From a virus: 26,860 nucleotides of DNA. The stretch covers positions 1 through 26,860 of the IMG/VR virus record IMGVR_UViG_3300012964_000051; one strand, written 5' to 3'. Numbering within the stretch: position 1 is the first letter of the stretch; each line of letters begins with the position of its first letter. Position numbers and translations under genes: made by a program. The notes beneath the pieces are model-generated. The model saw only the letters and a program-made list of their open reading frames with translations. It had not been told where the DNA came from and did not search any database. Shown here in pieces: positions 3,778 through 26,860 of the stretch.

Positions 3778-4313
3778 TTTGATTTCCTGTGATGTTTGAG
3801 TAATCCTGCTGATATCTTCTGCTTTGCTTCTTTGCTGTGGTGCTTTCCGAACATTGGATGAAGTGCGCCTGTGCGACCATAACACGCCGCCAACGGCCCG
3901 CGCTTGCCATACATCGGGCTATTGACGCCGGACATTCTACGACTCCATTCAGCGCGGCGCTCGGGCGTCCATAACTTTTCAAAGACGCCCTTTCTAGCTG
4001 CGTCTTGCTGATTGTCGCTATTAGTACCGAGCCATAGGTGTTCTGGATTTATACATGCTCGTACGTCGCATCTATGGCAGACGAACAACCCATCGGGAAT
4101 TTCGCCCACGTAGAACTGATACGGCGCTATATGCGCGCGACCGCTGAACTGTGATCTGCCTAGATGCCGACTGATACGACCATAGCCATTTTCAAAGAAC
4201 AGCCCATGCCATATCCAGCATCCGTTCTCATCAACTACGTATGAAGTCTGTAGTTGCCTCACGATGTCATCGCGCAGAGCTTCGTCTGTTCTAGGCGGTC
4301 TACCGGTTCTCAT
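3774..4313 (-). CDS. HNH homing endonuclease with NUMOD3 repeats, 179 aa
   Basis: ATG 4313 overlaps the upstream stop as ATGA with a GAGGAA SD. An HNH_3-type core is clear at about residues 75-115: C-H-x-C-D, then [10 protein letters not shown] and N-x-x-D, the usual zinc/metal-binding layout. The C-terminal ~50 residues carry three NUMOD3-type DNA-binding motifs ([33 protein letters not shown]). Such free-standing enzymes cut cognate sites and spread by repair. It is wedged between the VRR-NUC and SNF2 helicase genes, an ordered pair in many phages, so insertion of a selfish gene is likely. Its stop overlaps the helicase start. Confidence 0.9.
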
Positions 4314-4654
4314 TCTCTGTTCCTCAATAGTGCGGCAGTGTTGCGCGGAGCTGACTTCTTGGCGGCTGCGCATATGGCTGCCGTAGCCTCCTCCACGTTG
4401 TCGTGAACCTGCACTTCGTATCCTGCGTGCCGCAGGCGTTCGTGAATCAGCAACTGATACGGGCGTGGCGCTTCTCCGGGACGCTTGAATTCTACGAAGA
4501 GCGGACGACCCCCGCGAACGAGGAACATCCTGTCGGGGTAGCCTCTCTCTTGGGTACGCTTCAACTTGATGCTGAAGATACCAAGTTCTTCAAGCGCCCA
4601 CGCGGCGACCTTGCCTTCGATGTCGCTTTCGTACGCTACCTTACTTGATTTCAA
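4310..4654 (-). CDS. VRR-NUC domain nuclease, ~114 aa
   Basis: The sequence has the VRR-NUC core of the PD-(D/E)XK fold: S-D-I-E-G-K near the start, GYPDRMFLV with the catalytic Asp, and [11 protein letters not shown] giving E-x-K, followed by [19 protein letters not shown]. These small phage enzymes are often Holliday-junction resolvases or flap nucleases. I prefer a TTG start at 4654 ([14 protein letters not shown]) because GGAGG lies five bases upstream; ATGs at 4675 and 4684 in frame lack an SD. It overlaps the end of the previous small gene by 14 bp and is coupled to the HNH gene. Confidence 0.85.
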
Positions 4655-4841
4655 CGCGACCTCCGAACATTTCATACGCCACATGCTTGAACTTGTTCAT
4701 ACGATCAAACTCGCGTATGTAGTCCATCGTCGCGAGCATTCGCTCCATAGTGCTGAGCTGATTGTGCTTGGCTTTATCAAGCAGCGCCGGAGTTCTGTGC
4801 GGCGCTACGTAGATACGCGGCTTTCTTACTTTGGCAACCAT
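4641..4841 (-). CDS. Hypothetical basic protein, 66 aa
   Basis: ATG 4841 overlaps the end of the GNAT gene by 16 bp. The product starts MVAKVRKPRIYVAPHRTPAL and is basic at the N-terminus, with helical remaining sequence (MERMLATMDYIREFDRMNKF). No family recognised. Its 3' end provides the SD (GGAGG) used by the VRR-NUC gene, so the two are probably coupled. Confidence 0.65.
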   Translation of the reverse strand: MVAKVRKPRIYVAPHRTPALLDKAKHNQLSTMERMLATMDYIREFDRMNKFKHVAYEMFGGRVEIK

Positions 4842-5149
4842 ACCATCTCCCTTGACTCAGTGTTCGGCTTGGTGCGAACGAACCCGTATCGTGCGTAGAA
4901 ACCGGCTAGAGTTTCCACGGTCATTGCGCTGTCGTCAAACGGTGCCACGATCAGGTAGACCGTGAGCTGGTGGCGGCGCATGTAGCCCACTGCACGCCCC
5001 AGTAGCAACCGCCCCAGACCGCGTCCTCTGCGCCCGCTTACCACGTAGAAGTCATCCAACTCTACGCGCCCTGTACTGCGCTGCCGGATGGTGAGTTCAC
5101 CCGCTCCGTCGCCTGTGGTGAACTGCTTCAAGATCTTTTCTTCGGCCAT
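4826..5149 (-). CDS. GNAT-family N-acetyltransferase (first of a tandem pair), 107 aa
   Basis: The acetyl-CoA-binding motif A is clear: VVSGRRGRGLGRLLLGRAV (R/Q-x-x-G-x-G/A pattern, about residues 36-54), followed by a beta strand with VYLIVAP and the C-terminal AGFYARYGFVR typical of GNATs. Enzymes of this fold transfer acetyl from acetyl-CoA to an amine. Substrate unknown; host proteins, antibiotics or signalling factors are all possible. It overlaps the next GNAT gene by 22 bp and the two products share layout (ALxxFYxxYGF near the end, then REMV), so they likely arose by duplication and divergence. Confidence 0.85.
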   Translation of the reverse strand: MAEEKILKQFTTGDGAGELTIRQRSTGRVELDDFYVVSGRRGRGLGRLLLGRAVGYMRRHQLTVYLIVAPFDDSAMTVETLAGFYARYGFVRTKPNTESREMVWLPK

Positions 5150-5493
5150 TTCAGCACCATCTCCCGCTTGTCGTACTTCGTTGACTTGAACCCGTAGCTC
5201 TTGTAGAACTCAATCAGCGCATCTACGTTCATGGCGGGGCTGTTGTACGGGATGGCTCGCAGGAACACGCACCAACCCTGCTCCCTTGCGTGCGCCAGCG
5301 CGGTTTCCAACAGCACGCGCGCCCAGCCCCTGCCACGCCGCAGAGGATGTGTATGGAGATCACTCAGTTCCACGTACACCCGCGCATCACGCCCTCTTAT
5401 GTAGCTGTCGTCTTCGGAGAGGGCGAACAGTGTGACTTCCCCGATAAAGCCGCCCGCCCCGATGACCCATCTCTGCAGATCCTTTCCTGGCAT
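5128..5493 (-). CDS. GNAT-family N-acetyltransferase (second of a tandem pair), 121 aa
   Basis: Motif A is HPLRRGRGWARVLLETALAH (about residues 48-67), followed by VFLRAIPYNSPAMN and IEFYKSYGFKSTKY at the C-terminus, as in small GNAT enzymes. It is a paralogue of its 107-aa neighbour. ATG 5493 has GAGG ten bases upstream. The gene overlaps the Cys-rich ORF above by about 97 bp, unusually long for this compact genome, so either that ORF has lost its proper stop or one of the two starts is mis-set. Substrate unknown. Confidence 0.85.
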   Translation of the reverse strand: MPGKDLQRWVIGAGGFIGEVTLFALSEDDSYIRGRDARVYVELSDLHTHPLRRGRGWARVLLETALAHAREQGWCVFLRAIPYNSPAMNVDALIEFYKSYGFKSTKYDKREMVLKWPKKRS

Positions 5494-5693: not shown

Positions 5694-6403
5694 GTTCCGC
5701 CCTTGGCGCAACTGTAGGCGCAATACTGACATTTCGCATTCGGCTTCGGGCGGAACGTAGTGTCTGCGAACATGGGCTTGACCTTGGCGGTCCACTTGCG
5801 CTTGAGTTGCTCCAACTCACTGCGGTCGTAGTAGATCTCGTCGCCGTTGATCTGTGGGTAGATCACGCCTTCGTCCAGGAACCACAGACGCGGAGAAGCG
5901 CCGGTCACTTCGGGGAATTCACACATGCCGCCCAGCGAATATATTTCTAGTTGCTCGATGTAACTGCCTAGTTCGCCCTCGCGGTACTTGCCAGTCTTAT
6001 GATCTACCGGAACTAGTACGTTCGTCGCTTCATCAATACCGCAGAGATCCTGCTTTACGCGAAACCATACGTTATCCCAGTCGTTCCACGCCACAGGCTG
6101 CCAATCGCGATTGAAGCACCACGATTCTTCAACGAAGACATTCTTCATGCGAAGTGCCTGCGCGGCCTTGAACTCAGCTTCGAACAATTTAAGTTCCATC
6201 GGCAGCTTCTTCAGCGTTCCTTTAACAAAATCCTCAGCCATCTTACCGATCGCGCTACCACGCGCCATCGCAGGACTTCCTCCAGGAGGGCCATCCGGTA
6301 TCTTGTCCAGATGTTTTAGCTTAGCATAGTACGGACACTTATCGTAGTCACGATATCTTGAATAGGACCAAGACTGGAACTGCTTTATTTTCAAAGTTGC
6401 CAT
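5681..6403 (-). CDS. RecB/Cas4-like PD-(D/E)XK nuclease with probable Fe-S cluster, 240 aa
   Basis: AAGGAG stands five bases before ATG 6403 (MATLKIKQFQSWSYSRYRDY); the ATG at 6406 is an alternative. The start, WSYSRYRDYDKCPYYAKLKH, is the classic CxxxxPxxY-like entry of RecB-family nucleases. The catalytic region has R-V-K-Q-D-L, then PVDHKTGKY (D-x-K) and YIEQLEIYSL (Q/Y motif). One N-terminal Cys and three or four C-terminal Cys (KCQYCAYSCAKGGTC) match the 4Fe-4S arrangement of AddB/Cas4 nucleases. Likely a 5'-end or exonuclease-type enzyme in phage recombination or DNA processing. It ends in TAG. It overlaps the GIY-YIG gene by 3 bp. Confidence 0.85.
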   Translation of the reverse strand: MATLKIKQFQSWSYSRYRDYDKCPYYAKLKHLDKIPDGPPGGSPAMARGSAIGKMAEDFVKGTLKKLPMELKLFEAEFKAAQALRMKNVFVEESWCFNRDWQPVAWNDWDNVWFRVKQDLCGIDEATNVLVPVDHKTGKYREGELGSYIEQLEIYSLGGMCEFPEVTGASPRLWFLDEGVIYPQINGDEIYYDRSELEQLKRKWTAKVKPMFADTTFRPKPNAKCQYCAYSCAKGGTCRY

Positions 6404-7116
6404 CATTTCTCCTTCTTCTCGGTTAACTTTCTAAGTCTTAATGTCTCTCGCATAGCCGCTGTTCTCTTGGCGATATGATCAGCAGATTGCTTACGTCCTA
6501 GCGTGTATGTATTTCCAAGCATCTGCGCGGCCATTCTAGTCGCTGTCTTCTTACGACGTGCAGGATTGTCCCATGCGGCTTTCTGCATCTTAGACATGTG
6601 TGCATGAAACTGTGGGGATGCCCACATGTTCTTCGCTTTTTCAGATATGATCCGGCGGGAATTCTCAGAAAATTTCTTTCCTAGAAGGTATTTATTTCCA
6701 GCGTTGGCGCGTGCAATCGCTGCCCGCGTAGTTTCAGGCATTACGTGCCCGCGAACAGCCGCTGCATGTCTAGCGCGGGCTTCTGGCGTATGCCGTGCCT
6801 TTAACCTAGCTCGAGTTTCATCAGATGGTGTGTATCCTGCAGGACCTTCGCCGCCGTCAGTAAGATTTGCCAACCTAAAGCCCTGTTCGCGGCACCATGA
6901 AATCATCCATTCTTCATGACGAAATGCATGCCACTCAGATTTGCACGCATAGATAAATACCTGAATATTCGTCGCGCCGTACTTTGCAATAATATTCTGA
7001 TAGTGCGGATTTCTGGGTCTGCTCAAATAGTACGCCCGTCTAGAATGCCCTTTTCCGACATAGAAGGGTTCTCCGCTAGGGCGGCAGTGTACGTAGATGT
7101 AGAACTGCTTATTCAC
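6403..7116 (-). CDS. GIY-YIG homing endonuclease, 237 aa
   Basis: A GTG at 7116 overlaps the polymerase stop (TAGTGA). The N-terminal domain carries a variant GIY-YIG motif: FYIYVHCRPSGEPFYVGKGH, with R and Y residues following (SRRAYYLSRPRNPHY), and E-x-W in the HAFRHEEWMISWC region. The C-terminal half has repeated NUMOD-like basic motifs (GYTPSDETRARLKARH, LGKKFSENSRRIISEKAK, LGRKQSADHIAKRTAA), which bind DNA. The gene lies directly after DNA polymerase, a common site for free-standing homing endonucleases, and is probably selfish. Its 3' end overlaps the nuclease gene. Confidence 0.88.
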   Translation of the reverse strand: MNKQFYIYVHCRPSGEPFYVGKGHSRRAYYLSRPRNPHYQNIIAKYGATNIQVFIYACKSEWHAFRHEEWMISWCREQGFRLANLTDGGEGPAGYTPSDETRARLKARHTPEARARHAAAVRGHVMPETTRAAIARANAGNKYLLGKKFSENSRRIISEKAKNMWASPQFHAHMSKMQKAAWDNPARRKKTATRMAAQMLGNTYTLGRKQSADHIAKRTAAMRETLRLRKLTEKKEK

Positions 7117-9032
7117 TATCGTTTCTCTTTCAAATCTTTGAGAGAACCCCAGTTCGGGCCGTATTCGCCATCGCTCTTCATCAGTACGTCCATCTCGATG
7201 CTCTCCATACACTCGCGAAGCACCAGCATCTCTTCCTTGAACAGCCCCTTCTCTGCGCTGATGTCAATTTCGTCATGTACCTGCACGACCATGCGACCAC
7301 GTTTCTTTGGATGCTCGTGATACCGTATAAGAGCGGCCTTGGTGACGTCGGCGGCTGACCCCTGCACCAGATAATTAAGTAGCTTATACTCGAAGGTCAT
7401 GACTCGCTTGTACTTCTCCGAGTACCTCGGTTCCTCGGTGTAGTACTCGCGCCCGCCCCACGTGCGAATCGGTTCTCCGGCCTTGGCGCGTGCTTCTATG
7501 TTCTTGCTGAGTTCCTTCAGTCCTGGTAGTGCCTTCATCTGCGCATCACGCAGCCGCTTCACATCATGCACCGGCATTCCAAGTCGTTCGGCCACTGACG
7601 AAGTCCCTTCCCCATAAATATATCCGAAATTCAGCATCTTGACGGGACTACGCGGTACAGTCTCATTCAGCAACTCTTCAATCACGCCCTTGACGAAGCT
7701 GTGCGTATCAAGGTCTGGGTCTTCTTGGTATGCCTTCAGCAGCGCACCATCTTCAAAGTGAGCAACGATGCGCAGCTCTTGCTGATTGTAGTCGCGGCGG
7801 CCGAACAGATGGTTCGGCGCGTCGGGAATAATCAACTTGCGCAGAAGTGGGAGTTGTGGCAGTTGAATGATCTTTGACGACGGATGTACGTACCCATCGT
7901 TCTTATCTTCCAAGTCTGTAGGTATGTTCTGGAAGTTGGGGGAGCTGCTCATGCGGTTAGTCCGCGCACCGGCAGTATTCTTTCCGCCGTTCCTGTTCTG
8001 CCGTACTTGGTTCCAGCTTGTGTGGATGATGCCATCCGTGCGGCGGGCTGTGTTTAGCCAAGGGCGCATGAACGTGCCAAGGCAGGTACTGAGCTTGCCA
8101 CGATAGCCCAATATGCTCGCCACATGCTTGTCGGTGAACGTATCTACCTTCATGTTCTTCTTGCTGGTGCTGCGCTTGCCGGTCTTGGTGAGCGTCCACT
8201 CAGTAACGATACCCGCCTTGTCCAGCGCATCCGCCAGTTCAGCATCGCTGTCTATGTTGAGGTTCGGTACTTTCAGCTTCTTGCGCAGCCAGTTATCCGC
8301 GTTCTGCAACGCAGCCTCGTAGATCTTGGTATCTTTCTCCAACTGCCGCAGGTTGCATCGCATGCCTTCCCGCTCATTGTCCAGCAAGATAGGCATCAGC
8401 TTCTGCTCGCGCTGGTACGCCTCCAGCATGCCCCGTTCTACGATCTCTGGGTACAGCTTGCGGAACAGTTTGTAGGTACGCTCCACGTCGCCGTCTGCGT
8501 AGCTGCCCACTAAGTCTCCGGGAGCCAGACAGATCCACTTACCCGCATTGGACATGGTGATGGGCTTCTCGTCCGCCGGTAGTAGCCCGTCGCGCTTGAG
8601 TTCCTGTTGATGCTGTACCAGCCACTGAGCGACCGCCTGCTGCTCTGTGGGCGGCATTCCCAGGATGCGCTCCGCACTGGGTTTGAGGGAGAAGGTCTGC
8701 GCGTGTGGATCGCTCAGTGCAAGGAGGAACATCGTATCGTGCATCAGCAACGGATCTGTGATGCGCTTGCATCCCATGTGCGTCTCTGCTACGTCGACGT
8801 CGAACTTGTCATTCTGGAACAGCAGCGCGCCTGACTTCCACGCCTCCTTGAGCACCCTCTGCGCATCTTTGAAGTTGCAGTTATTGCGTACCGGATGCCC
8901 CCATGCGTAATACTGAGACTTCCGTTCTCCGGGACGGCGTATGCTGAACCCTACGGGCTTCGGCGGGTATTGGGGACGAGAAAAAATTGGAAATGTCTCG
9001 AAGTCAATTGTCGTTACCGATGGGATGCTCAT
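7116..9032 (-). CDS. Family A DNA polymerase with 3'-5' exonuclease domain, 638 aa
   Basis: Residues 1-200 hold the proofreading domain: Exo I D10/E12 (TTIDFETF), Exo II N74/D78 (LFQNDKFDVD) and Exo III Y178/D182 (SYADGD). The polymerase domain has NFQNIP (366-371), motif A DYNQQELR (414-421; usual is DYSQIELR), motif B RSPVKMLNFGYIYG (461-474) and motif C VQVHDEID (584-590). All catalytic residues are present, so it should be an active replicative enzyme. ATG 9032 overlaps the DUF2130 stop as ATGA. The end is a tandem TAG-TGA, and the second stop overlaps the GTG of the homing endonuclease gene. Confidence 0.95.
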   Translation of the reverse strand: MSIPSVTTIDFETFPIFSRPQYPPKPVGFSIRRPGERKSQYYAWGHPVRNNCNFKDAQRVLKEAWKSGALLFQNDKFDVDVAETHMGCKRITDPLLMHDTMFLLALSDPHAQTFSLKPSAERILGMPPTEQQAVAQWLVQHQQELKRDGLLPADEKPITMSNAGKWICLAPGDLVGSYADGDVERTYKLFRKLYPEIVERGMLEAYQREQKLMPILLDNEREGMRCNLRQLEKDTKIYEAALQNADNWLRKKLKVPNLNIDSDAELADALDKAGIVTEWTLTKTGKRSTSKKNMKVDTFTDKHVASILGYRGKLSTCLGTFMRPWLNTARRTDGIIHTSWNQVRQNRNGGKNTAGARTNRMSSSPNFQNIPTDLEDKNDGYVHPSSKIIQLPQLPLLRKLIIPDAPNHLFGRRDYNQQELRIVAHFEDGALLKAYQEDPDLDTHSFVKGVIEELLNETVPRSPVKMLNFGYIYGEGTSSVAERLGMPVHDVKRLRDAQMKALPGLKELSKNIEARAKAGEPIRTWGGREYYTEEPRYSEKYKRVMTFEYKLLNYLVQGSAADVTKAALIRYHEHPKKRGRMVVQVHDEIDISAEKGLFKEEMLVLRECMESIEMDVLMKSDGEYGPNWGSLKDLKEKR

Positions 9033-10171
9033 GCTGACAATCTCGCTATGTCAAGACCTTCTATCTCAGCAAGAGACTTTCCCGCGATGGCTTGCAGGTC
9101 GCCATACATCCCGACGGTCCCTGTAAGTACGCGCTCAATCTGAGCTTCTCGCTTTGACCACTGCTTAGTTATGGCGCGACGCTCCGCGTCCAAGTCTTCA
9201 CGCATGCTGGTGAACGCCTCTACAATAGCCGACACACGAGACTTGAAGCGAGGTCCTACCATGTATTGATATATGAGGCCAGCCTTGGTCTCCACGCCCT
9301 CGCCCGCCGCCTTTGCAGATGCGACCTCCGTAAGCACTTGGCGCAACGCCACCGCCAGCGGAATCGCATGCTGCGGCGAGCACACCCAGACACCCTCTAC
9401 TTGGTCAAAACTGGCGACGCCCTTGGGCAGCGCCACCGTGACAATGACCAATAGATCCGCCTTCGCGGCACGGCCATCGTCACGCAGCTTTGCAAGCCAG
9501 CCGTCTGACCATGTCTTGGTATTCTTGGACTCATACAGAATTGTACCGGCACCGTTGATAGTCTGCGTGCAGTCACCGCCGGAAATACCCTTGCCGACGG
9601 GCGTGATGGTGTCGGTCGGAAACCGTTCTTGCAGTGCTCGCTCCAGCGCAAGTTCCTGCGCCTCACCCTGTGTTTGCTGCGAGCCTTGTTCCGCCTTGCG
9701 CCGCAGCTCCTCCACTGTGCGCGCCATTGATGCTATTGTCTGGTCACGCTCAGCGATGTTACTGCGGAACCGCTCTTCCACGGCCTGCTCTGCTGTCAGT
9801 CTCGCCGACGCAAGGCCCTCGGCGGTGCGTCGCTCAACCGTCAGCTCAAGCTCACGGCGGGCTTCTTCCAGTTCACGCTGTGCCTTCAGCGCCTTGGCTT
9901 GGTCCGCCTGCGCAGCCTCCAGCTTTACGACCATCGCGCGCTCGCTGTCAGTCGCCATCTGTGCTTCACGCTTGATGGCGGCCACTACGTCGGCTTGCGT
10001 CTTCTGCGCACGCGCAGTCGCGTCGGCTTCAATCTGCCGACGCGCTTCCTCAACCTGCTGCGCAAGATCACGACTAGCTTCCGCGCGCACGGCGGCGATC
10101 ATTGGCGCGGCCAGTGCGTCGGTCAACTCGAACGTGTGGTGGCACTTGGGGCATTCTACTTTCGTTTCCAT
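9029..10171 (-). CDS. DUF2130-like coiled-coil PD-(D/E)XK protein, 380 aa
   Basis: ATG 10171 uses an SD (TAGGAG) overlapping the previous stop. The start has one CPKC pair (Cys7, Cys10). Residues about 25-165 are a long charged coiled coil rich in E, R, A and Q. The rest matches DUF2130: a helix near EAQELALERALQERFP, GISGGDCTQTI with Asp200, and ILYESKNTKTW giving E214-x-K216, the PD-(D/E)XK-like core, then SDGWLAKLRDD. The C-terminus again looks coiled-coil (MREDLDAERRAITKQWSKR). DUF2130 proteins are mostly bacterial and uncharacterised; nuclease activity is inferred. The gene directly precedes the polymerase, so a role near replication or host DNA handling is plausible. Confidence 0.85.
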   Translation of the reverse strand: METKVECPKCHHTFELTDALAAPMIAAVRAEASRDLAQQVEEARRQIEADATARAQKTQADVVAAIKREAQMATDSERAMVVKLEAAQADQAKALKAQRELEEARRELELTVERRTAEGLASARLTAEQAVEERFRSNIAERDQTIASMARTVEELRRKAEQGSQQTQGEAQELALERALQERFPTDTITPVGKGISGGDCTQTINGAGTILYESKNTKTWSDGWLAKLRDDGRAAKADLLVIVTVALPKGVASFDQVEGVWVCSPQHAIPLAVALRQVLTEVASAKAAGEGVETKAGLIYQYMVGPRFKSRVSAIVEAFTSMREDLDAERRAITKQWSKREAQIERVLTGTVGMYGDLQAIAGKSLAEIEGLDIARLSA

Positions 10172-14154: not shown

Positions 14155-14326
14155 TGCTGTCGCAGTATTCAAAGTCTAGCTCAGAGACTGTAGACTCATC
14201 AACCATTAAAGACCGCTCCCGAGAGACTCTTCTCTGAAATCTCGACTTACCAGATGATAGAGCCGCAAGAACCGCGCCAAACAATGCCGCGATGAGTATC
14301 ACCGCCCAGAATGCTACGTCAGTCAC
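14129..14326 (-). CDS. Small membrane protein, 65 aa
   Basis: GTG 14326 follows the same GGAAGGAGG SD cassette. Residues about 4-23 (VAFWAVILIAALFGAVLAAL) form one transmembrane helix, followed by a cytoplasmic-looking basic segment and an acidic stretch ending EIGRRMP. The last seven residues are identical to the end of the upstream gene because both lie in copies of a 26-bp repeat. The gene lies exactly between the two copies and may have been acquired by duplication. Function unknown. Confidence 0.7.
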   Translation of the reverse strand: MTDVAFWAVILIAALFGAVLAALSSGKSRFQRRVSRERSLMVDESTVSELDFEYCDSTEIGRRMP

Positions 14327-14348
14327 GGCATCCTCCTTCCAATTTCTG
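14323..14348. repeat. 26-bp direct repeat, copy 2
   Basis: Perfect second copy, 194 bp away from the first, with the same role for the preceding gene pair. Confidence 0.95.
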
Positions 14349-14706
14349 CGGCGGCTCGTACGATTGCGCGGCAGGTTGCTGCCGCATGGTTCTTGTGGAC
14401 TATCTCGTAGTCCGGGCCTTGTTCGCTGTCTGGATACTCATAGAGCTGGTGCCCCTCGCATTCGTCAACCACCCACTGAACCAGTATTGATGCATCGTTC
14501 ACTTCAACGCGAAGTCGCAGATCCACGGCAAGCCGCAACGCAGCATCATTACTGCACAGAGGATTCCATGTAACGTGACCTCCTTTGGGAAGGAAGAACC
14601 CAAGGCGCATACTGCCATCATCCTTCGCGTGTGCGCCTATATAGTAGTCGACAGCATACCCAGCAGCCTTCGCGGCCAGCTCCAACAGTTCCTTGTCCGT
14701 AGTCAT
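14323..14706 (-). CDS. DUF2591-like phage protein, 127 aa
   Basis: ATG 14706 (MTTDKELLELAAKAAGYAVD) overlaps the DnaJ stop as ATGA; the longer reading at 14730 is unlikely. The pattern ELLELAAKAAG...WNPLCSNDAALRLAVDLRL...V resembles a small-protein family common in Burkholderiales and other proteobacterial phages (DUF2591-type), of unknown function. The last seven residues EIGRRMP lie in the 26-bp repeat. The neighbours suggest an accessory role in the primase-ligase unit. Confidence 0.7.
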   Translation of the reverse strand: MTTDKELLELAAKAAGYAVDYYIGAHAKDDGSMRLGFFLPKGGHVTWNPLCSNDAALRLAVDLRLRVEVNDASILVQWVVDECEGHQLYEYPDSEQGPDYEIVHKNHAAATCRAIVRAAAEIGRRMP

Positions 14707-15074
14707 ACAATCACCCCCGCTCCGTGGCACTCACCGCACGCCGTCTCTGTGACCTTGTTGAACCCTTTCTGCTTGCTAGCGTACCCGCGCCCCTTGCACG
14801 CCGCGCACGGCTTCCCGTTGAGCTCAAGCACGTAGCGGTCGCGCCGCGTGGTGAGTTCGTGGTGCGCTGCATTCACCCGCGCCATCAGGTCTGTCGCGTC
14901 CTTCGTGCAGCAGACGTCGGGGTGTACGTACAGGGCGAGGTCACGGCGAGCACGGCTAACGTCTATCTGCGGGCTGTCGCGATGCACGCCCAACAGGTGG
15001 AAGGCGTGCTTGGCTTCCATGATCCGCCTGCGGATTGCTGTAATGCTCTTTTCTGCGATACGTCGCTCTTTCAT
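14703..15074 (-). CDS. Mini-DnaJ: J domain plus one zinc-finger pair, 123 aa
   Basis: Residues about 22-75 form a J domain with HPD at 51-53 (LALYVHPDVCC), the motif that stimulates DnaK ATPase. After a short linker come two CxxCxGxG motifs, CAACKGRG (90-97) and CGECHGAG (113-120), half of the four found in full DnaJ. No glycine-rich region or C-terminal substrate domain follows. It could recruit host DnaK for replication or assembly, as known for lambda P-type uses of host chaperones, but that is inference. ATG 15074 has AAGGAG. Confidence 0.85.
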   Translation of the reverse strand: MKERRIAEKSITAIRRRIMEAKHAFHLLGVHRDSPQIDVSRARRDLALYVHPDVCCTKDATDLMARVNAAHHELTTRRDRYVLELNGKPCAACKGRGYASKQKGFNKVTETACGECHGAGVIV

Positions 15075-15075
15075 G

Positions 15076-15333
15076 TCAGCTCCTTGTTATCTCTGCAAGT
15101 AGGCGCTTCCGCAGTGCGTGGTCGGTTTCTCCGTGTCTGCGGATTACTGCGGGCGACACCGCCATGCGGCCCAGTCTGTCCAGTTCAGCACCGCTGTAGA
15201 CGTGTGCAGAGACACGACTGTACGCCTCCGCCTGAAGTATCCGTTCATTGTCTTCACGCGTGCGGTATCCTCCACTCACACCGGCTACGACAGCCGCGCC
15301 ACCAAGTGTCTTCAGGAAGTCTCGTCTGTTCAT
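15076..15333 (-). CDS. Small protein with a Tat-type signal sequence, 85 aa
   Basis: The N-terminus MNRRDFLKTLGGAAVVAGVS fits the twin-arginine pattern R-R-x-F-L-K with a mild hydrophobic core, as in Tat signal peptides. The rest (LDRLGRMAVSPAVIRRHGET, then DHALRKRLLAEITRS) resembles a small domain seen in phage proteins (G-E-T-D-x-x-L-R-x-R-L). Export would be unusual for a gene between replication genes; a mimic of the signal or a membrane peptide is another reading. The ATG overlaps the previous stop (ATGA). Confidence 0.65.
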   Translation of the reverse strand: MNRRDFLKTLGGAAVVAGVSGGYRTREDNERILQAEAYSRVSAHVYSGAELDRLGRMAVSPAVIRRHGETDHALRKRLLAEITRS

Positions 15334-15500
15334 GGATGCACCTTCTTCGCTTGGATGGGCGTCCGTGCATCGCGATGCAGAATGCGCGTCTTCGCCTCGG
15401 CCATTGCGCGATTTACATCCCAGTTAGGATTTTCTTTGAGCAACTTCGCTGCGAGAGCGTTAACTCCAGGACGCCGAATTTCGCTAGTCTCGTCTATCAT
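15330..15500 (-). CDS. Small hypothetical protein, 56 aa
   Basis: ATG 15500 has AGGAG six bases upstream, inside the primase stop (TTTTAGGAGATAGAC). The product starts MIDETSEIRRPGVNALAAKL and ends IQAKKVHP, with a helical KENPNWDVNRAMAEAKTRI. Its TGA overlaps the next ATG. No family recognised; coupling on both sides supports it. Confidence 0.65.
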   Translation of the reverse strand: MIDETSEIRRPGVNALAAKLLKENPNWDVNRAMAEAKTRILHRDARTPIQAKKVHP

Positions 15501-19997: not shown

Positions 19998-20588
19998 ATG
20001 GGCGCGTCAGCATCCACATCAAAGAACTCGCGACCTCGCAGCGGACTTACCCAGAAACAAGAAAGATTCGCATTGGAGTTTGTCAAGTGCGGTAATGCAA
20101 GCGAAGCATATCGTAAGTCGTATGAAGTCAGGTCCGCGACAACGCAAAAAACAGTGAACGAGCAAGCGTCCAAATTACTGGCGCACCCCGGCATCTCCAC
20201 AAGGATCGCAGAGCTCCGCTCAAAAATTGAGCAGAAGACAGAGATCACGATTCAAAGAATTGCTGAAGAACTTGCTCGCGTCGCCTTCGCAGATCAACGT
20301 AAAGTTATGCGATGGGGACAGCACGGTGTGACGCTCCACGACTCCGACGACCTGAGTGACGACGCAGCCGCTATCGTGTCCGAAGTATCTGAGACAACCA
20401 CGAAGGACGGGGGTAGTATCAAGCTGAAGTCCCACGACAAGGTTCGCGCGCTTGAGTTGCTTGGGAAACATATGGGCATGTTCAAGGAGAAGCTGGAAGT
20501 GACGACGCCAGGATCTGCGCAGCAAGAAGCGAAGATTCCGGCAGACGCTGTGGAGGCATCAAAAACGTACAAAGACCTCATGGGCTAA
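19998..20588 (+). CDS. terS: Terminase small subunit (Terminase_2 family), 196 aa
   Basis: Residues about 15-85 match Terminase_2: LTQKQERFALEFVKCGNASE, AYRKSYEV, TVNEQASKLLAHPGISTRIA. This N-terminal part is the DNA-binding helix-turn-helix and oligomerisation core; the C-terminal part (LKSHDKVRALELLGKHMGMF) is typical of the family. The protein recognises the packaging site and loads TerL. ATG 19998 has GGAGAAG seven bases before it. A long stem-loop lies upstream and may be the packaging site or a regulatory RNA. Next gene starts 3 bp after the stop. Confidence 0.93.
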   Translation: MGASASTSKNSRPRSGLTQKQERFALEFVKCGNASEAYRKSYEVRSATTQKTVNEQASKLLAHPGISTRIAELRSKIEQKTEITIQRIAEELARVAFADQRKVMRWGQHGVTLHDSDDLSDDAAAIVSEVSETTTKDGGSIKLKSHDKVRALELLGKHMGMFKEKLEVTTPGSAQQEAKIPADAVEASKTYKDLMG

Positions 20589-20591
20589 GTC

Positions 20592-20813
20592 ATGACGCTA
20601 CCCGCACACATGTACCGCGATCCGCAACAAGTAGCCATTCGTAACGAGGAAGAACACAACCGCAAAGAGGCCGCGTGCGGCGAGTGTCGCGAGCGCGTCA
20701 GCTTCCACTGGTACGGCGAGGAGTTGGTGAATTGCGAGTTGAAGTATGAACACTACGGCCATCGCTGCGAACATTTCCGCAAGCGCAGCCCCGATACTGA
20801 AGAGAACGACTGA
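20592..20813 (+). CDS. Small Cys-rich protein between terminase subunits, 73 aa
   Basis: Product starts MTLPAHMYRDPQQVAIRNEE. Cysteines at ACGECRERVSFHWYG, NCELKYE and HRCEHF, plus histidines, suggest a zinc-binding fold. ATG 20592 has only a weak SD; the internal ATG at residue 7 is an alternative. Its TGA overlaps the TerL ATG (TGATG). Small proteins of this kind between TerS and TerL are known in phages but their job is not. Confidence 0.7.
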   Translation: MTLPAHMYRDPQQVAIRNEEEHNRKEAACGECRERVSFHWYGEELVNCELKYEHYGHRCEHFRKRSPDTEEND

Positions 20814-22435
20814 TGCCTCTTGCCTTCCCACATGACTGGAAACAACCTGACATTGTAGCGGTGTTTCGGTGGCGCGCCGAACGCTTGCAGCGTATCCGCC
20901 AGAACCCCGAGAAGATACCGGCGCTGAAGAAGTATTACGCCGAGCACCCAGCCCAATTTATCAACGACTGGGGCTGCACGGTGGATCCGCGTAACGTAGA
21001 CCGCAAGCTGCCCGCCGTGATGCCGTTCCTGCTGTTCCCCAAGCAGGAAGAGTGGATTGAGTGGTGCGTCAAGCACTGGCAAGAACGCGAGAACGGACTC
21101 ACTGACAAGTCACGTGACATGGGCGCGTCGTGGCTTACTGTTGCGCTCGCCGCTACCATGTGTCTTCATCATCACGGGTTCTCTGCGGGCTTCGGCAGCC
21201 GCAAGGAAGAGTATGTTGACTTGATCGGCAGCCCGAAGAGTTTGTTCTGGAAGGCCCGCGAGTTCATCAGCATGTTGCCGGTTGAGTTTCGCGGCGGGTG
21301 GGTGCGCGGCAAGCACGACCCGCACATGCGCATTATCTTCCCGGAGTCGCAGAGCGTGATGACCGGCGAGGCCGGAGACAACATAGGTCGCGGTGACCGC
21401 ACTTCTATATACTTCGTTGATGAGTCCGCTCACATTGAGCGCCCCGAGTTGATTGAAGCCTCACTGTCCGCAACCACCAACTGCCGCATGGACTTGTCCT
21501 CCGCTAATGGTATGAACAACGTGTTCGCGCAGAAGCGATTCGGCGGTAAGATCGACGTGATGACGTTGCACTGGCACGACGACCCGCGCAAGGATGCGGC
21601 ATGGTACGCGACGCAACAGGAGAAGCTAGACCCCGTTACGCTGGCGCAAGAAGTTGATATCGACTACAACGCCAGCGTCAAGGGCGTGCTCATACCGTCT
21701 GCGTGGATCGCCGCTGCTGTGGACGCGTGCGCAAGGCTTGGCATTAAGGTTACTGGCAGCAAGCAGGCGGCGCTGGATGTGGCTGACGAGGGCGTTGACC
21801 TCAATGCATTCTGCGGCATGCGCGGCGTGCAGATCGAGCACATGGCGGAATGGAGCGGCAAGGGTGGCGACATCTACGATACGGTGCAGCACGCGTTCCA
21901 ACTGTGCGACGAGGGCGGATACAAGGATCTGCGCTACGACGGCGACGGCCTCGGTGCCGGTGTGCGTGGTGACGCGAAGAACATCAATACTGCACGCACG
22001 AAGAACAAGGTGTATGCAGTCAAGTGTGAGTCGTTCCGTGGTAGCGAGTCGGTCATCAACCCAGAAGCCAAGGTTGAAGGGACTGACCGCACGAACGAGG
22101 ATTACTTCGCCAACCGCAAGGCGCAGGCGTGGTGGAATCTCCGCACCAAGTTCAAGCGGACGTATCGCTGGGTCGTGGAGGGAATACCCTGCGACCCTGA
22201 CGACATCATATCAATAGCGCCGAACTGCACCAATCGGCAGAAGCTGGTGACCGAGCTCTCACAGCCCACGTATAAGATCAACGACGCGGGCAAGATCATT
22301 GTGAACAAAGCACCAGATGGCAAGAAGTCACCGAACCTTGCTGACGCAGTGATGATCGCGAACGCGGGCAACGACAAGCAGCTTATGAAGATCAGCGCAG
22401 CAACAGTGCAGGCAATGCGAATGAGGAAATCCTGA
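20813..22435 (+). CDS. terL: Terminase large subunit, 540 aa
   Basis: The ATPase domain has a Walker A-like DKSRDMGASW (about 98-107, the K-x-R-x-x-G-x-S form seen in terminases) and Walker B IYFVDESAH (Asp203, Glu204). The nuclease domain has acid residues in AALDVADEGVD (322-325), RYDGDGLG (376-378) and PNLADAVMIA near the C-terminus, the three-metal-ligand pattern of the RNase H-fold. It pumps DNA into the prohead and cuts it. It is coupled by TGATG at both ends. Confidence 0.95.
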   Translation: MPLAFPHDWKQPDIVAVFRWRAERLQRIRQNPEKIPALKKYYAEHPAQFINDWGCTVDPRNVDRKLPAVMPFLLFPKQEEWIEWCVKHWQERENGLTDKSRDMGASWLTVALAATMCLHHHGFSAGFGSRKEEYVDLIGSPKSLFWKAREFISMLPVEFRGGWVRGKHDPHMRIIFPESQSVMTGEAGDNIGRGDRTSIYFVDESAHIERPELIEASLSATTNCRMDLSSANGMNNVFAQKRFGGKIDVMTLHWHDDPRKDAAWYATQQEKLDPVTLAQEVDIDYNASVKGVLIPSAWIAAAVDACARLGIKVTGSKQAALDVADEGVDLNAFCGMRGVQIEHMAEWSGKGGDIYDTVQHAFQLCDEGGYKDLRYDGDGLGAGVRGDAKNINTARTKNKVYAVKCESFRGSESVINPEAKVEGTDRTNEDYFANRKAQAWWNLRTKFKRTYRWVVEGIPCDPDDIISIAPNCTNRQKLVTELSQPTYKINDAGKIIVNKAPDGKKSPNLADAVMIANAGNDKQLMKISAATVQAMRMRKS

Positions 22436-24498
22436 TGAACACAGCACTTCGCCGAATCATCGCCGCAGTAAGGGGCGCGCTCCAAGGTCTGCGCTCCGGG
22501 TTCCGCAGCGTGACGGAGGTGCCGGTCAATGCGCCCAAGTTCGAGCAGCCGCAGGACGCGAGCGCCAAAGAGCTGCGAGAGCAGTACCGCATGGCCGTTG
22601 CGACAGCGGTCGCCAAGATGAAGTCCGAGCAAGAGGCTGCGCAACCTGTAGTCACCGTACAGGACATATTCAAAGTGACCAAGCCCCCGAAAGGCGTGGT
22701 TCCCGCTGACCAGCAGATGGCGTTCGACCAGTCGCTTGAGGACCTCAGCAGCGTGATGGGGTGGGCGACTACGAACAGCCTGTTCGTCGAAGGGTTGATG
22801 TTCCTAGGTTACCCGTACCTCGCGCAACTGTCGCAGCGGCCGGAGTACCGCGTGATCAGCGAGACGTGGGCGCAGGAAATGACCCGCAAGTGGATACGGC
22901 TCACGGCCACCAGCGGCGGGCAAGACAGCACCAAGCAGAAGGTCGACAAGATGACCGCCATCGAGGCAGAACTCAAGCGGCTCAAGGCGCAGGATGCGTT
23001 CAAACGCTGCGCGGAGTTGGACGGGTCCTTTGGGCGCGGCCACATCTACATCGAGTTGACAGACGTCGATAGCAAAGATCGCGACGAACTGAAGACCAGC
23101 ATCGGCGAGGGCACCGGTGCCATCAGCAAGGCGAAGATCAAGCAGGGAAGTCTCAAGGGTCTGCGCGTGGTGGAACCGGTGTGGACGTATCCCAACGGAT
23201 ACAACGCCAATGATCCGCTGAAGTCCAACTTCTTCAAGCCCGACACGTGGTTCGTGATGGGCACTGAAATACACAGCACGCGCCTGCTGACGTTCATAGG
23301 CCGCCCGATGCCCGACCTGCTGAAGCCCGCGTACAGCTTCGGCGGCCTTTCGCTGTCGCAGATGGCGAAGCCCTACGTTGACAACTGGCTGCGCACGCGG
23401 CAGTCCGTGTCCGACGCGGTAAGCAACTTCAGCATCATGATGCTGATGACGGATATGTCATCCATGCTGCAGGAAGGGGCGATGACAGATCTCGTTACGC
23501 GAGCCGACTTCTTCAACACCACACGCAACAATCGCGGCTTGATGGTGGCAGACAAGAACACCGAGGATCTGAAGAACGTGTCCATGCCGTTGGGCGGGCT
23601 GCACGAATTGCAGTCTCAGTCGCAGGAGCAGATGTGCTCTGTGTCGCAGATACCTCTCGTCAAGTTCACAGGCATACAACCCGCCGGATTGAACGCCGAC
23701 TCCGAGGGCATAATCAAGGTATTCTACGATAAGGTCAACGCGCAGCAGGTAGCGCTCTTCAACGACAATCTGTCCAAGCTCATCGCGATTATACAGCTCA
23801 GTCTGTTCGGGGAGGTAGACCCAGAGATCGGATTCGTGTGGGAACCGCTGGACACGCTGGACCCGTCCGCGGAAGCTACACGTCGCAAGACCGAAGCCGA
23901 CACAGATGCTGTGTATCTGGATCACGGTGTTGTGATGCCTGCGGAGGTGCGCACCAAGCTCGCGGCGGATGACATGTCGCCATATGCTTCTCTTGATACT
24001 GATGCTGAGTTGCCTGATGTCAGCGAGCAGGAAGGCGGCGAGGTTGATGAGGAGACCGGCGCTCCGCTGATGGACGGACTGCTGAATACGGATGAACAGA
24101 AGTCACCGGCGATGTCTGCCGCAGGCGTGCTCTTCATCACGACGGAACAGCCGCCGCGCGTCCTGCTGCTCAAGCGCTCCGCCGACGACACTCGGCATCC
24201 TGGGTTCTGGGATATTCCTGGCGGCAAGACCGAGGATGGCGAGTTTGCTGTGCAGACAGCCGTTCGCGAGGCGGCAGAAGAGACTGGCGCTGACGTAGGC
24301 TCACAGCACTTGCGGCAGGTAGCCCACACACAGTGGAACGACGTGGATTACACCACGTTCTCCGCGCAGGTAGACAAGCCGTTCATCCCGGTGCTTGATA
24401 GCGAGCATGAGACTTACACATGGGCGAGCGTGCCCACGCTGCCGTCACCTATTATCCTACCGCTCGAAGAACTGCTGCACAACGTACTGGAGGCCTAG
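22435..24498 (+). CDS. DUF1073-type portal protein fused to a C-terminal NUDIX hydrolase, 687 aa
   Basis: Residues about 90-500 look like a DUF1073 portal: FVEGLMFLGYPYLAQLSQRP, TWAQEMTRKWIRLTA, WLRTRQSVSDAVSNFS, and ISQIPLVKFTG-like VSQIPLVKFTGIQPAG. An acidic linker (about 530-555) leads to a complete NUDIX domain at about 557-687: strand AAGVLFITTE, PRVLLLKRS, HPGFWDIPGG and the box G597-x5-E-x7-R-E-A-A-E-E-T-G (to 618). All metal-binding glutamates are present. Portals form the DNA entry pore of the head; NUDIX enzymes cleave nucleoside-diphosphate-X substrates. The frame is continuous with no internal stop. It ends TAG, then TTATGA couples to the next gene. Confidence 0.92.
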   Translation: MNTALRRIIAAVRGALQGLRSGFRSVTEVPVNAPKFEQPQDASAKELREQYRMAVATAVAKMKSEQEAAQPVVTVQDIFKVTKPPKGVVPADQQMAFDQSLEDLSSVMGWATTNSLFVEGLMFLGYPYLAQLSQRPEYRVISETWAQEMTRKWIRLTATSGGQDSTKQKVDKMTAIEAELKRLKAQDAFKRCAELDGSFGRGHIYIELTDVDSKDRDELKTSIGEGTGAISKAKIKQGSLKGLRVVEPVWTYPNGYNANDPLKSNFFKPDTWFVMGTEIHSTRLLTFIGRPMPDLLKPAYSFGGLSLSQMAKPYVDNWLRTRQSVSDAVSNFSIMMLMTDMSSMLQEGAMTDLVTRADFFNTTRNNRGLMVADKNTEDLKNVSMPLGGLHELQSQSQEQMCSVSQIPLVKFTGIQPAGLNADSEGIIKVFYDKVNAQQVALFNDNLSKLIAIIQLSLFGEVDPEIGFVWEPLDTLDPSAEATRRKTEADTDAVYLDHGVVMPAEVRTKLAADDMSPYASLDTDAELPDVSEQEGGEVDEETGAPLMDGLLNTDEQKSPAMSAAGVLFITTEQPPRVLLLKRSADDTRHPGFWDIPGGKTEDGEFAVQTAVREAAEETGADVGSQHLRQVAHTQWNDVDYTTFSAQVDKPFIPVLDSEHETYTWASVPTLPSPIILPLEELLHNVLEA

Positions 24499-24500
24499 TT

Positions 24501-25703
24501 ATGAAGAAGCTGCTTGAACGTTCGTTGTATGCAGCACTTGTTGTCGCCGTTCTCGCAGCTTCTGGGCTCCGTCTGGATTACGCACCTGCGCATGCGTACG
24601 ACGTCTACCAAGGATTCGCGGGTAGCAAGGAGTTGCTCTCTCCGACCGTGGTGCTGGTTGACCACAGCGGTTCCGCAGTATCCGCAAGCAACCCGCTACC
24701 GGCGATCACCGAGTATGGCTCGGTAGAGTCCATCACGGACCACTACGGAACGCAGCAGTATCTCGCGCCGAACGGCGAGGTGGTTGCGGTCCCTCTGTAC
24801 AAGCTGGTCGGCGATACGTTCTTTGACTCTGTGCTGGACACGGGGCGATGGGCTGCATCCGTCGGAACTGGCGGGTCAGCGGTTGTCTCTGCGGGGCAGT
24901 TGAGCTTGTCCACAGGCACGACTGCAAATAATGCAACGTCGTTAGTATCTATACACACAGCACGATTTTCTGGACTTGCCCCCAACAAAATACGTACAGT
25001 AGTTCAGCTCGCAGATGCTGGAACTGCGAACAACGTTCGTGAGTGGGGCGTTGCAACGGCATCCGCTGGAGCAGTAGTTGACGGCGCATTCTTTCGTCAA
25101 AATGGAACGACTCTTCAACTTGTCACCAGAAAGAGTTCGGTTGAGACTGTTATAGCATCGAGCGGTGCGTTCAATGGGCAGCACGGCGCGACGTTTTCAC
25201 TGGGAACAAGTTCTCACTTCTTCGAGGTCATCTATCAGCCAAGACAAGTCATATGGATGGCCGACAACAAGATCGTTCACACGCACAGTGCATCTGCTAC
25301 ATCGTGGACCGGCAATCTTCATCTGAAGATATGGCTTGCGAACTACAACACGAACGGGCTGACGACCAATGTCACCATGCAGGTTCGTCTGTCTACAATC
25401 GCCAGATTTGGGGTGGCCGACACTCAAGTTGATGGATATTTCCAACAAGGACTCACCGCTGGCGTCATTCTGAAGTATGGTCCTGGAACTTTACGCAGTT
25501 TGATACTCAGCGGCGTAACAAATAATGCCGTCGTGACTCTATACGACGGAACTTCGACGGCTGGAACAGTCATGTTCTCCAGCGGAACGATGGGCGCGCA
25601 GACTGCGCCGTTTGCGTTGAATGCCAGCGATGAGGCGTTCAACGACGGGCTATTCCTTACGGTGACCGGAGCAGCCGCGAATGCGTGGGTGCATTTTGAG
25701 TAG
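24501..25703 (+). CDS. Virion-region protein with a Sec signal peptide, 400 aa
   Basis: ATG 24501 lies two bases after the portal stop. The N-terminus MKKLLERSLYAALVVAVLAA is a classic signal peptide with an AHA cleavage site about residue 32 (APAHA-YD). The mature part is Ser/Thr/Gly/Ala-rich and beta-stranded, with a jelly-roll-like central region (FFDSVLDTGRWAASVGTGGS, FEVIYQPRQVIWMADNK, LHLKIWLAN) similar in feel to lectin-like domains, and a small C-terminal beta domain (LRSLILSGVTNNAVVTLYDG). It is between portal and the gpF-like gene, where decoration or tail-fibre-type proteins occur. Export of a protein from a head-gene operon is unexpected. Ends TAG. Function uncertain. Confidence 0.7.
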   Translation: MKKLLERSLYAALVVAVLAASGLRLDYAPAHAYDVYQGFAGSKELLSPTVVLVDHSGSAVSASNPLPAITEYGSVESITDHYGTQQYLAPNGEVVAVPLYKLVGDTFFDSVLDTGRWAASVGTGGSAVVSAGQLSLSTGTTANNATSLVSIHTARFSGLAPNKIRTVVQLADAGTANNVREWGVATASAGAVVDGAFFRQNGTTLQLVTRKSSVETVIASSGAFNGQHGATFSLGTSSHFFEVIYQPRQVIWMADNKIVHTHSASATSWTGNLHLKIWLANYNTNGLTTNVTMQVRLSTIARFGVADTQVDGYFQQGLTAGVILKYGPGTLRSLILSGVTNNAVVTLYDGTSTAGTVMFSSGTMGAQTAPFALNASDEAFNDGLFLTVTGAAANAWVHFE

Positions 25704-25719: not shown

Positions 25720-25869
25720 GTGACCATCAGCCTGCCTTGGTGGTGGAAGATCTACGCACTTGCCTGCTGTCTGCGCTGCAGGATCATGGGCACGGAGCCC
25801 GACACTGACGCCATCGCTGAAAAAATAACAAGGCACGTTCGCTGCGACGTGAAGATGGTGAGCGAATGA
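25720..25869 (+). CDS. Small hydrophobic phage protein, 49 aa
   Basis: A GTG at 25720 gives MTISLPWWWKIYALACCLRC, an aromatic, partly membrane-like start with two Cys, then RIMGTEPDTDAIAEKITRHV and VRCDVKMVSE. The pattern S-L-P-W-W-W...G-x-E-P-D resembles small proteins found next to portal genes in phages of several hosts. The SD is weak, and a TTG at 25699 is an alternative. Its TGA overlaps the next ATG (ATGA). Function unknown. Confidence 0.6.
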   Translation: MTISLPWWWKIYALACCLRCRIMGTEPDTDAIAEKITRHVRCDVKMVSE

Positions 25870-26726
25870 CCCGCGAAGCTACGTTGCGCAGCACCCTGCC
25901 TGCCCCGTCGTCAAAGACCAAGACACTATCGCCGGTACACCCGAACGCAGGACTTGAGGCGGAGTACCGGCGCAGACTTGAAGCCTTGATCGATGCGATG
26001 CACAAGAGCCTTCGTTACTGGGTGCTCGCAGCATACCGAGGAGACCTGCCGGACACGGTCGAACTGCTGGCGATGGACGACTCCTCGTCGGTCAAACTCG
26101 CTGCAGTGATGCAGCGACTGTCGCGCCACTGGCTGCGCAAGTTCAAGGAAGCCGGTAAGCAACTCGGCAAGCACTACGCGCAGAAGGCGACGGACAGGGC
26201 GGACAACTCGCTGGAGCAGATCCTGAAGAACGGCGGTCTTGCCATCAAGTTCAAGATGACGCCAGCCGTGAACGACGTTGTGCAGGCCACGACGAAGAGC
26301 AACGTGGCGTTGATCACGAACCTCGCGCAGAAGCATCTGAACGAGGTTGAAGGATTGGTCATGCGCAGTGTGCAGCAGGGTCGTGATGTCGGTGGTCTTG
26401 CCAAGGATTTGGAAGAACGTTACAAGATGACCCGCAAGCGCGCGGCGCTGGTGGCGCGTGACCAGAACAACAAGGCCACAGCGGCCATCGTGCGCACGCG
26501 GCAGGCTGAGCTGGGCATTGAACAGGCCAAGTGGTTGCACAGCCACGCAGGTAAGAAGCCGAGGCCGTCGCACGTTGCAATGAACGGCAAAGTGTACGAC
26601 GTCAAGGAAGGCATGTGGGACCCAGACGCTAATGGTAAAGGGAAGGGTGATTATGTATTCCCAGGACAGTTAATAAACTGCAGATGCGTGAGCAGGTCAA
26701 TAATCCCCGCACTTGGAGTGCGGTAA
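25866..26726 (+). CDS. Mu gpF / SPP1 gp7-like minor head protein, 286 aa
   Basis: The C-terminal half has the family signature: LEERYKMTRKRAALVARDQN, KATAAIVRTRQAELGI, AKWLHSHAGKKPRPSHVAMN and PGQLINCRCVSRSI, ending in a typical INCRC metal-like motif. The N-terminal half is helical (RLEALIDAMHKSLRYWVLAA). Such proteins join the portal or help head assembly and DNA ejection. ATG 25866 is coupled to the 49-aa gene. A full-length member by size. The next gene follows after a 16-base gap containing its SD. Confidence 0.92.
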   Translation: MTREATLRSTLPAPSSKTKTLSPVHPNAGLEAEYRRRLEALIDAMHKSLRYWVLAAYRGDLPDTVELLAMDDSSSVKLAAVMQRLSRHWLRKFKEAGKQLGKHYAQKATDRADNSLEQILKNGGLAIKFKMTPAVNDVVQATTKSNVALITNLAQKHLNEVEGLVMRSVQQGRDVGGLAKDLEERYKMTRKRAALVARDQNNKATAAIVRTRQAELGIEQAKWLHSHAGKKPRPSHVAMNGKVYDVKEGMWDPDANGKGKGDYVFPGQLINCRCVSRSIIPALGVR

Positions 26727-26742: not shown

Positions 26743-26860
26743 ATGGAGCAAGTAAACGAGCATGAGACTGTTGAGCAACCCGTCGCAGACGCACCCGTCG
26801 CAGACGCACCCGTCGCAGACGCACCCGTCGCAGACGCACCCGTCGCAGACGCACCCGTCG
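26743..26860 (+). CDS. PVADA-repeat protein, 5' part (runs off the right edge)
   Basis: ATG 26743 has AAGGAG seven bases upstream. The product starts MEQVNEHETVEQ and then consists of PVADA repeats: five full units plus PV before the window ends. Pro/Ala/Val/Asp-rich repeats are likely extended and acidic. Because scaffold proteins often follow the gpF-like gene and have acidic, disordered starts, a scaffolding or head-assembly role is plausible but inferred. Confidence 0.75.
   Translation, partial: MEQVNEHETVEQPVADAPVADAPVADAPVADAPVADAPV
26779..26860. repeat. Tandem array of a perfect 15-bp unit
   Basis: cccgtcgcagacgca is repeated identically five times and a sixth copy is cut by the window end. 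It is in frame with the last gene. All third-base positions are identical, a sign of very recent expansion. Confidence 0.95.

Follow-up and report, generated by a model that had tools for sequence, protein, structure and literature searches.

A predicted NUDIX hydrolase fused to a phage portal protein as candidate cargo of the phage head

The virus record IMGVR_UViG_3300012964_000051, analysed here over its full length of 26,860 nucleotides (the window), encodes a portal protein that continues without interruption into a NUDIX hydrolase domain (22435-24498, plus strand). The reading that we favour, with a probability of roughly 0.55, is that of a normal portal subunit whose predicted NUDIX domain is a competent enzyme, is kept inside the head as cargo, and hydrolyses a nucleoside-diphosphate-X (NDP-X) compound. 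The gene product would form the portal dodecamer, and past the barrel its C-terminus would continue through a flexible linker into a NUDIX pyrophosphohydrolase of the MutT-like kind. Judged from its context, this head cargo may be interchangeable with the effector domains of sister portals. Hydrolysis of the NDP-X substrate may take place in the infected cell, which would require release of the domain from the linker, or else in the producing cell, while particles are being assembled or earlier.

The gene is a single open frame from ATG to TAG that codes for 687 amino acids, and Pfam recognises two domains in it. The portal family PF06381 (Phage_portal_3, formerly DUF1073) matches residues 127-492 (22813-23910) with 256 bits and an E-value of 4.4e-76, spans positions 2-356 of the 357 in the profile, and far exceeds the gathering cut-off of 33.8 bits. 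The NUDIX family PF00293 matches residues 561-669 (24115-24441) with 57.7 bits and an E-value of 1.7e-15 (cut-off 21.1 bits), and the compact fold reaches residue 687. PHROGs concur with Pfam in placing the two parts with portal proteins (phrog_146, E 4e-94) and MutT/NUDIX proteins (phrog_1198, E 7e-19). The uninterrupted frame described in the first-pass annotation is therefore real as read, and its coordinates are correct. A related locus from an independent metagenome (L005/L015) has the same fusion, 78% identical, between the same neighbours. Because the fusion recurs there, its joining in the window is not an artefact; a frameshift or assembly error is rejected, and neither a stop codon nor a frameshift separates the domains. 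Separate translation of the NUDIX part from an internal start is unlikely: residues 546 and 560 offer possible start codons, and no Shine-Dalgarno sequence lies at a usable spacing before either of them or before the matching codons in L005.

The NUDIX domain looks catalytically competent. Its NUDIX box, GKTEDGEFAVQTAVREAAEETG, at residues 597-618 (24223-24288), is an exact G-x5-E-x7-R-E-x2-E-E-x-G motif and conforms to the superfamily box G-x5-E-x7-R-E-U-x-E-E-x-G-U. An alignment of 46 NUDIX domains, taken from the portals and head proteases of related phages, shows W592, P595 and G597 without variation; the box residues E603, R611, E612, E615 and E616 are each kept in 45 of the 46, as are E657 and W663. 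AlphaFold predicts a complete NUDIX fold for the isolated domain (mean predicted local distance difference test score, pLDDT, 95.1; predicted template modelling score 0.88); two structure-prediction alignments were made without two rows each from public phage records. The nearest solved folds are the MutT-like protein 3grn (Z 18.4), E. coli MutT (16.7), Ap4A hydrolases (16.4-16.6) and NudB (16.3). Between the window and L005, the ratio of nonsynonymous to synonymous substitution (dN/dS, NG86 method) is about 0.26 in the NUDIX region (dN 0.32, dS 1.24) and about 0.12 in the portal core (dN 0.099, dS 0.85). With conserved residues, a fold predicted to be intact and a dN/dS of this size, the domain is under purifying selection and appears able to catalyse. 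A degenerate NUDIX is rejected on the same conservation and model confidence, and the intact box claimed at the outset holds.

For the full-length protein, the AlphaFold model is of moderate confidence only (pLDDT 69). It shows a portal fold, followed by a linker at residues 530-564 (24022-24126) that is predicted to be disordered (pLDDT < 50). The best structural matches of the portal part are the portals of two Pseudomonas phages: residues 112-536 of the model align with residues 98-513 of the Pa193 portal chain (9b41, Z 28.2), and the E217 portal (8fvh) follows with Z 27.2. In E217 the C-terminal helical barrel of the portal points into the head and is folded only in the presence of DNA (PMC10329688), and residues 529-765 of the Pa193 portal have no density (PMC11042391). 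As the C-terminal side of these homologous portals points into the head, we infer that about twelve copies of the NUDIX domain of the window are loosely tethered in the head interior, on the side of the DNA. The same orientation, together with the effector domains that sister portals carry (see below), lends contextual support to the earlier suggestion of a virion-borne enzyme. The portal ring remains in the virion, and for this reason delivery of the domain into a cell would need cleavage of the linker. The E217 portal itself (L214, 9124-11418) has 765 residues, of which 97-528 are modelled; the part beyond these contains an InPase domain (PF18823, E 3e-43). By its sequence, this appears to be a second pyrophosphatase-like cargo in the same portal family, in a phage whose virion has been solved.

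Relatives were collected in three viral-contig scans and one bacterial-genome scan, which gave 150 portals once near-identical ones were set aside; 142 of these have a complete C-terminus. A clear C-terminal NUDIX domain occurs in five of the 150, namely those of the window, L015, L076, L200 and Burkholderia phage Bcep1, and a sixth portal, which is truncated (L082), has a diverged copy. Three changes are needed to place the NUDIX bearers on the portal tree, and their union in a single clade is rejected (approximately unbiased (AU) test, p 7e-6); the fusion arose in at least three lineages. The portals nearest to the pair formed by the window and L015 (L094, L095, L018 and L017) all have long C-terminal tails. 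Those examined near the pair contain zeta toxin (L006 = L094, L009 = L095), Top1B (L095) and ADP-ribosyltransferase domains (L007, near-identical to L017). Across 38 portal tails scanned, ADP-ribosyltransferase exoenzyme domains were found in eight, NUDIX in six, zeta toxin in five, and histidine phosphatase and GNAT in two each; ddrB-ParB, Top1B, PBECR1 and phosphoribosyltransferase domains complete the set. The C-terminus of this portal clade would accordingly be a variable cargo site. The first-pass annotation had tied DUF1073 portals to the enzyme Acb1, which counters the cyclic-oligonucleotide-based antiphage signalling system (CBASS), through members with a 2H phosphoesterase in this place. 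The literature does report 2H phosphoesterases fused to MuF or portal proteins (PMC9503650, PMC5512222), although none of the 38 tails contains a 2H or Acb1 domain.

The relatives carry NUDIX domains more often on the head protease than on the portal. Among the nonredundant loci in which a DUF2213 head protease was seen, 36 of 110 have NUDIX at the protease N-terminus. In four portal-NUDIX loci the protease is visible, and in none of them does it carry a NUDIX of its own; this number is not significant (Fisher p 0.30), and mutual exclusion of the two arrangements is not claimed. In a tree with controls, the union of all head-associated NUDIX domains in one clade is neither supported nor rejected (AU p 0.10). 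Further features were observed in these loci. A motif like E.(D/K)HPRD..G(K/Q)F, which is not found in the window, is frequent in the long cargo tails of portals (L094 6836-12772, L164 6743-12127, L174 953-4720, L150 1462-6054, L117 6737-9547, L018 5941-8691 and others), where it lies between cargo domains in up to four copies (L094). It occurs in 15 long-tailed portals and in a few other open reading frames (ORFs) of these loci, and might mark head cargo for cleavage or docking. Two loci have further NUDIX-bearing ORFs downstream of the portal: L112 encodes a diverged NUDIX within a 453-amino-acid protein (8797-10158), and L130 a NUDIX in an incomplete ORF that is not assigned to a function (14197-15372).

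The substrate of the NUDIX domain is not readable from sequence or fold. Its closest profile matches are of the CTP/8-oxo-dGTP type, and every NCBIfam equivalog model stays far under its cut-off. No substrate class is given here, because the equivalog scores are so low and the nearest structures lie so close together, with MutT, Ap4A hydrolases, NudB, NrtR and others within a few Z units; assignment by nearest solved structure was dropped, as was assignment by tree, since NUDIX trees are without resolution. Similarity to MutT-like enzymes is a poor predictor of substrate across the superfamily. NUDIX enzymes cut NDP-X pyrophosphates, a linkage that is absent from cyclic di- and trinucleotides and from linear oligoadenylates and present in ADP-ribose and the isomers of cyclic ADP-ribose (cADPR). 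The first-pass annotation had named both cyclic nucleotides and ADP-ribose derivatives as defence signals that the domain might cleave. As the known chemistry of the superfamily is cleavage of NDP-X pyrophosphates, cyclic GMP-AMP (cGAMP) and oligoadenylates are poor candidate substrates and cleavage of cyclic dinucleotides is unlikely; on the same chemistry, action on ADP-ribose-type signals is possible. Candidate substrates are damaged dNTPs, the capped ends of RNA and ADP-ribose or NAD-derived compounds. In a single BLASTP comparison, the domain matched T4 NudE, a hydrolase of ADP-ribose, FAD and ApnA, with 35% over 62 amino acids (E 4e-8). A profile made from protease-borne NUDIX domains only gives it 120 bits, compared with 53-98 for standalone phage NUDIX proteins and 34 for T4 NudE. 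According to a 2026 preprint, no mechanism degrading 2'cADPR and 3'cADPR was known before a RyR-domain glycosidase (PMC13232231), so a NUDIX enzyme that degrades either of them would be new. A literature search found no paper joining NUDIX, phage, anti-defense and NAD+.

Several points weigh against the proposed cargo enzyme. For none of the portal-NUDIX proteins did the analysis find biochemical, proteomic or genetic evidence, and no second gene linked to NAD or ADP-ribose was recognised in the window. As portals stay behind in the virion, injection would depend on the cleavage step mentioned above. Late action in the producing cell would produce the same selection and the same catalytic conservation. 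It is possible, if doubtful, that the domain serves counter-defence: the head protease would free it from the linker, and it would enter with the DNA, hydrolyse ADP-ribose-type signals or NAD-derived products, and protect the phage early. The pyrophosphate in cADPR isomers and the variable effector-type domains at the same portal site are compatible with this, the same idea has been proposed for packaged phage Nudix domains (PMC9503650), and with T4 Alt there is an earlier case of an enzyme that is packaged in the head and injected (PMC9503650; T4 annotation). However, no cleavage of the portal is known, the domain does not appear specifically T4 NudE-like by the profile scores, and degradation of 2'cADPR or 3'cADPR had no known mechanism before the glycosidase. 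Rather unlikely is a late housekeeping role, in which the enzyme would act in the producing cell or prohead, sanitise nucleotides or clear pyrophosphate-type metabolites near the packaging vertex, and be fused to the portal merely for retention at the head. The MutT-like, Ap4A and NudB-type folds and the CTP/8-oxo-dGTP-type profiles nearest to the domain would suit such a role, as would the pyrophosphatase-like InPase at the same place in E217. Yet MutT-likeness says little about the substrate, and toxin-like effector domains such as those of the sister portals are hard to explain as housekeeping functions. Quite improbable, in our estimate, is a scheme in which the head protease cuts the NUDIX from the portal, the domain travels into the host together with the genome and, at the very start of infection, cleaves an immune signal of the ADP-ribose type, and the portal C-terminus and protease N-terminus are interchangeable docking sites for pre-loaded anti-defence enzymes. 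A purely structural or binding part, in which the fold would serve at the portal to bind nucleic acids or nucleotides and catalysis would not matter, would fit the weaker constraint on the NUDIX than on the portal core but is highly improbable given the metal-binding glutamates and arginine kept in 45 of 46 divergent copies and the recurrent independent gains of NUDIX.

The surroundings of the fusion gene agree with its assignment to the head module. The small terminase subunit (19998-20588, plus strand; PF03592, E 7.3e-31) is followed by the large subunit (20813-22435, plus strand), which lies directly upstream of the portal-NUDIX gene, has a weak terminase match (phrog_5989, E 8.5e-5), and has a counterpart of 78% identity at the corresponding position in L015. 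After the portal-NUDIX gene comes a MuF-type head morphogenesis protein (25866-26726, plus strand; PF04233, E 6e-18) that is 89% identical in L015, which completes the usual head gene order. Between portal and MuF, a gene for 400 amino acids with a signal-peptide-like start (MKKLLERSLYAALVVAVLAASG) occupies 24501-25703 on the plus strand. It has no match in Pfam, and its only relative among the loci compared is in L005/L015 (48% identity); the placement of a secreted-looking protein amid the head module is odd. Tandem repeats stand at both contig ends (1-251, an 18-bp unit repeated 13.9 times, and 26778-26860, a 15-bp unit repeated 5.5 times). The contig probably ends at these repeats, so the record would be incomplete, with the head protease beyond its end. 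In the replication module, two genes on the minus strand resemble homing endonucleases, one of HNH/NUMOD3 type (3774-4373) and one with NUMOD3 (6403-7212) that adjoins DNA polymerase A. Two adjoining small GNAT acetyltransferase genes on the minus strand (4826-5149 and 5128-5493) are probably a duplicated pair.

The portal-NUDIX architecture and the idea of packaged anti-defence enzymes are already published, and both the observation and the hypothesis of the first-pass annotation were anticipated. Phage Nudix domains fused to MuF, portal and head protease were described in 2022, and their packaging, injection and action on NAD/ADP-ribose signals were proposed (PMC9503650). The window is a further, diverged and independently gained member of this theme; it enlarges a small set of portal-NUDIX cases and illustrates that NUDIX cargo occurs on the head protease as well as at the portal C-terminus. 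The value of the finding lies in testability rather than novelty. If the domain were delivered and active on immune signals, the packaged anti-defence idea would be directly testable in cultured Naesvirus on Burkholderia. In the Burkholderia Bcep781 group (Naesvirus; Bcep1 gp18, Bcep781 gp17, Bcep43 gp17 and BcepNY3 gp16), one gene between terminase and MuF likewise combines a PF06381 portal with a C-terminal NUDIX. The Bcep1 gp18 record gives the product as 'portal protein' with the note 'similar to membrane-localized nudix hydrolase family proteins', and that of BcepNY3 gp16 reads 'NUDIX hydrolase'. These proteins differ from that of the window in an identity of only 37-39% over the match, a shorter NUDIX loop and PAG in place of PGG, and the portal tree shows their fusion to have been gained separately. 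The head-packaged Nudix domains and polyvalent or effector fusions of the literature (PMC9503650, PMC5512222) resemble the window in having Nudix on portal, MuF or head serine peptidase. Their authors classed phage Nudix mainly as T4 NudE-like or NadM-like, whereas the window domain scores far above T4 NudE on the protease-NUDIX profile, in a family whose tree lacks resolution. The NUDIX-DUF2213 proteases (Shewanella phage QDWS gp44, Klebsiella phage Chronis gp4 and many IMG/VR loci) share the kind of NUDIX and the head module with the window but bear the domain at the protease N-terminus rather than the portal C-terminus. The E217 and Pa193 portals (gp19) likewise combine a PF06381 portal, solved in the virion, with an enzyme-like C-terminal domain past the barrel; in E217 this domain is InPase, in the window NUDIX. 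From the anti-CBASS Acb1/2H phosphoesterase theme the window differs in that its C-terminal domain is NUDIX and has no 2H match in Pfam.

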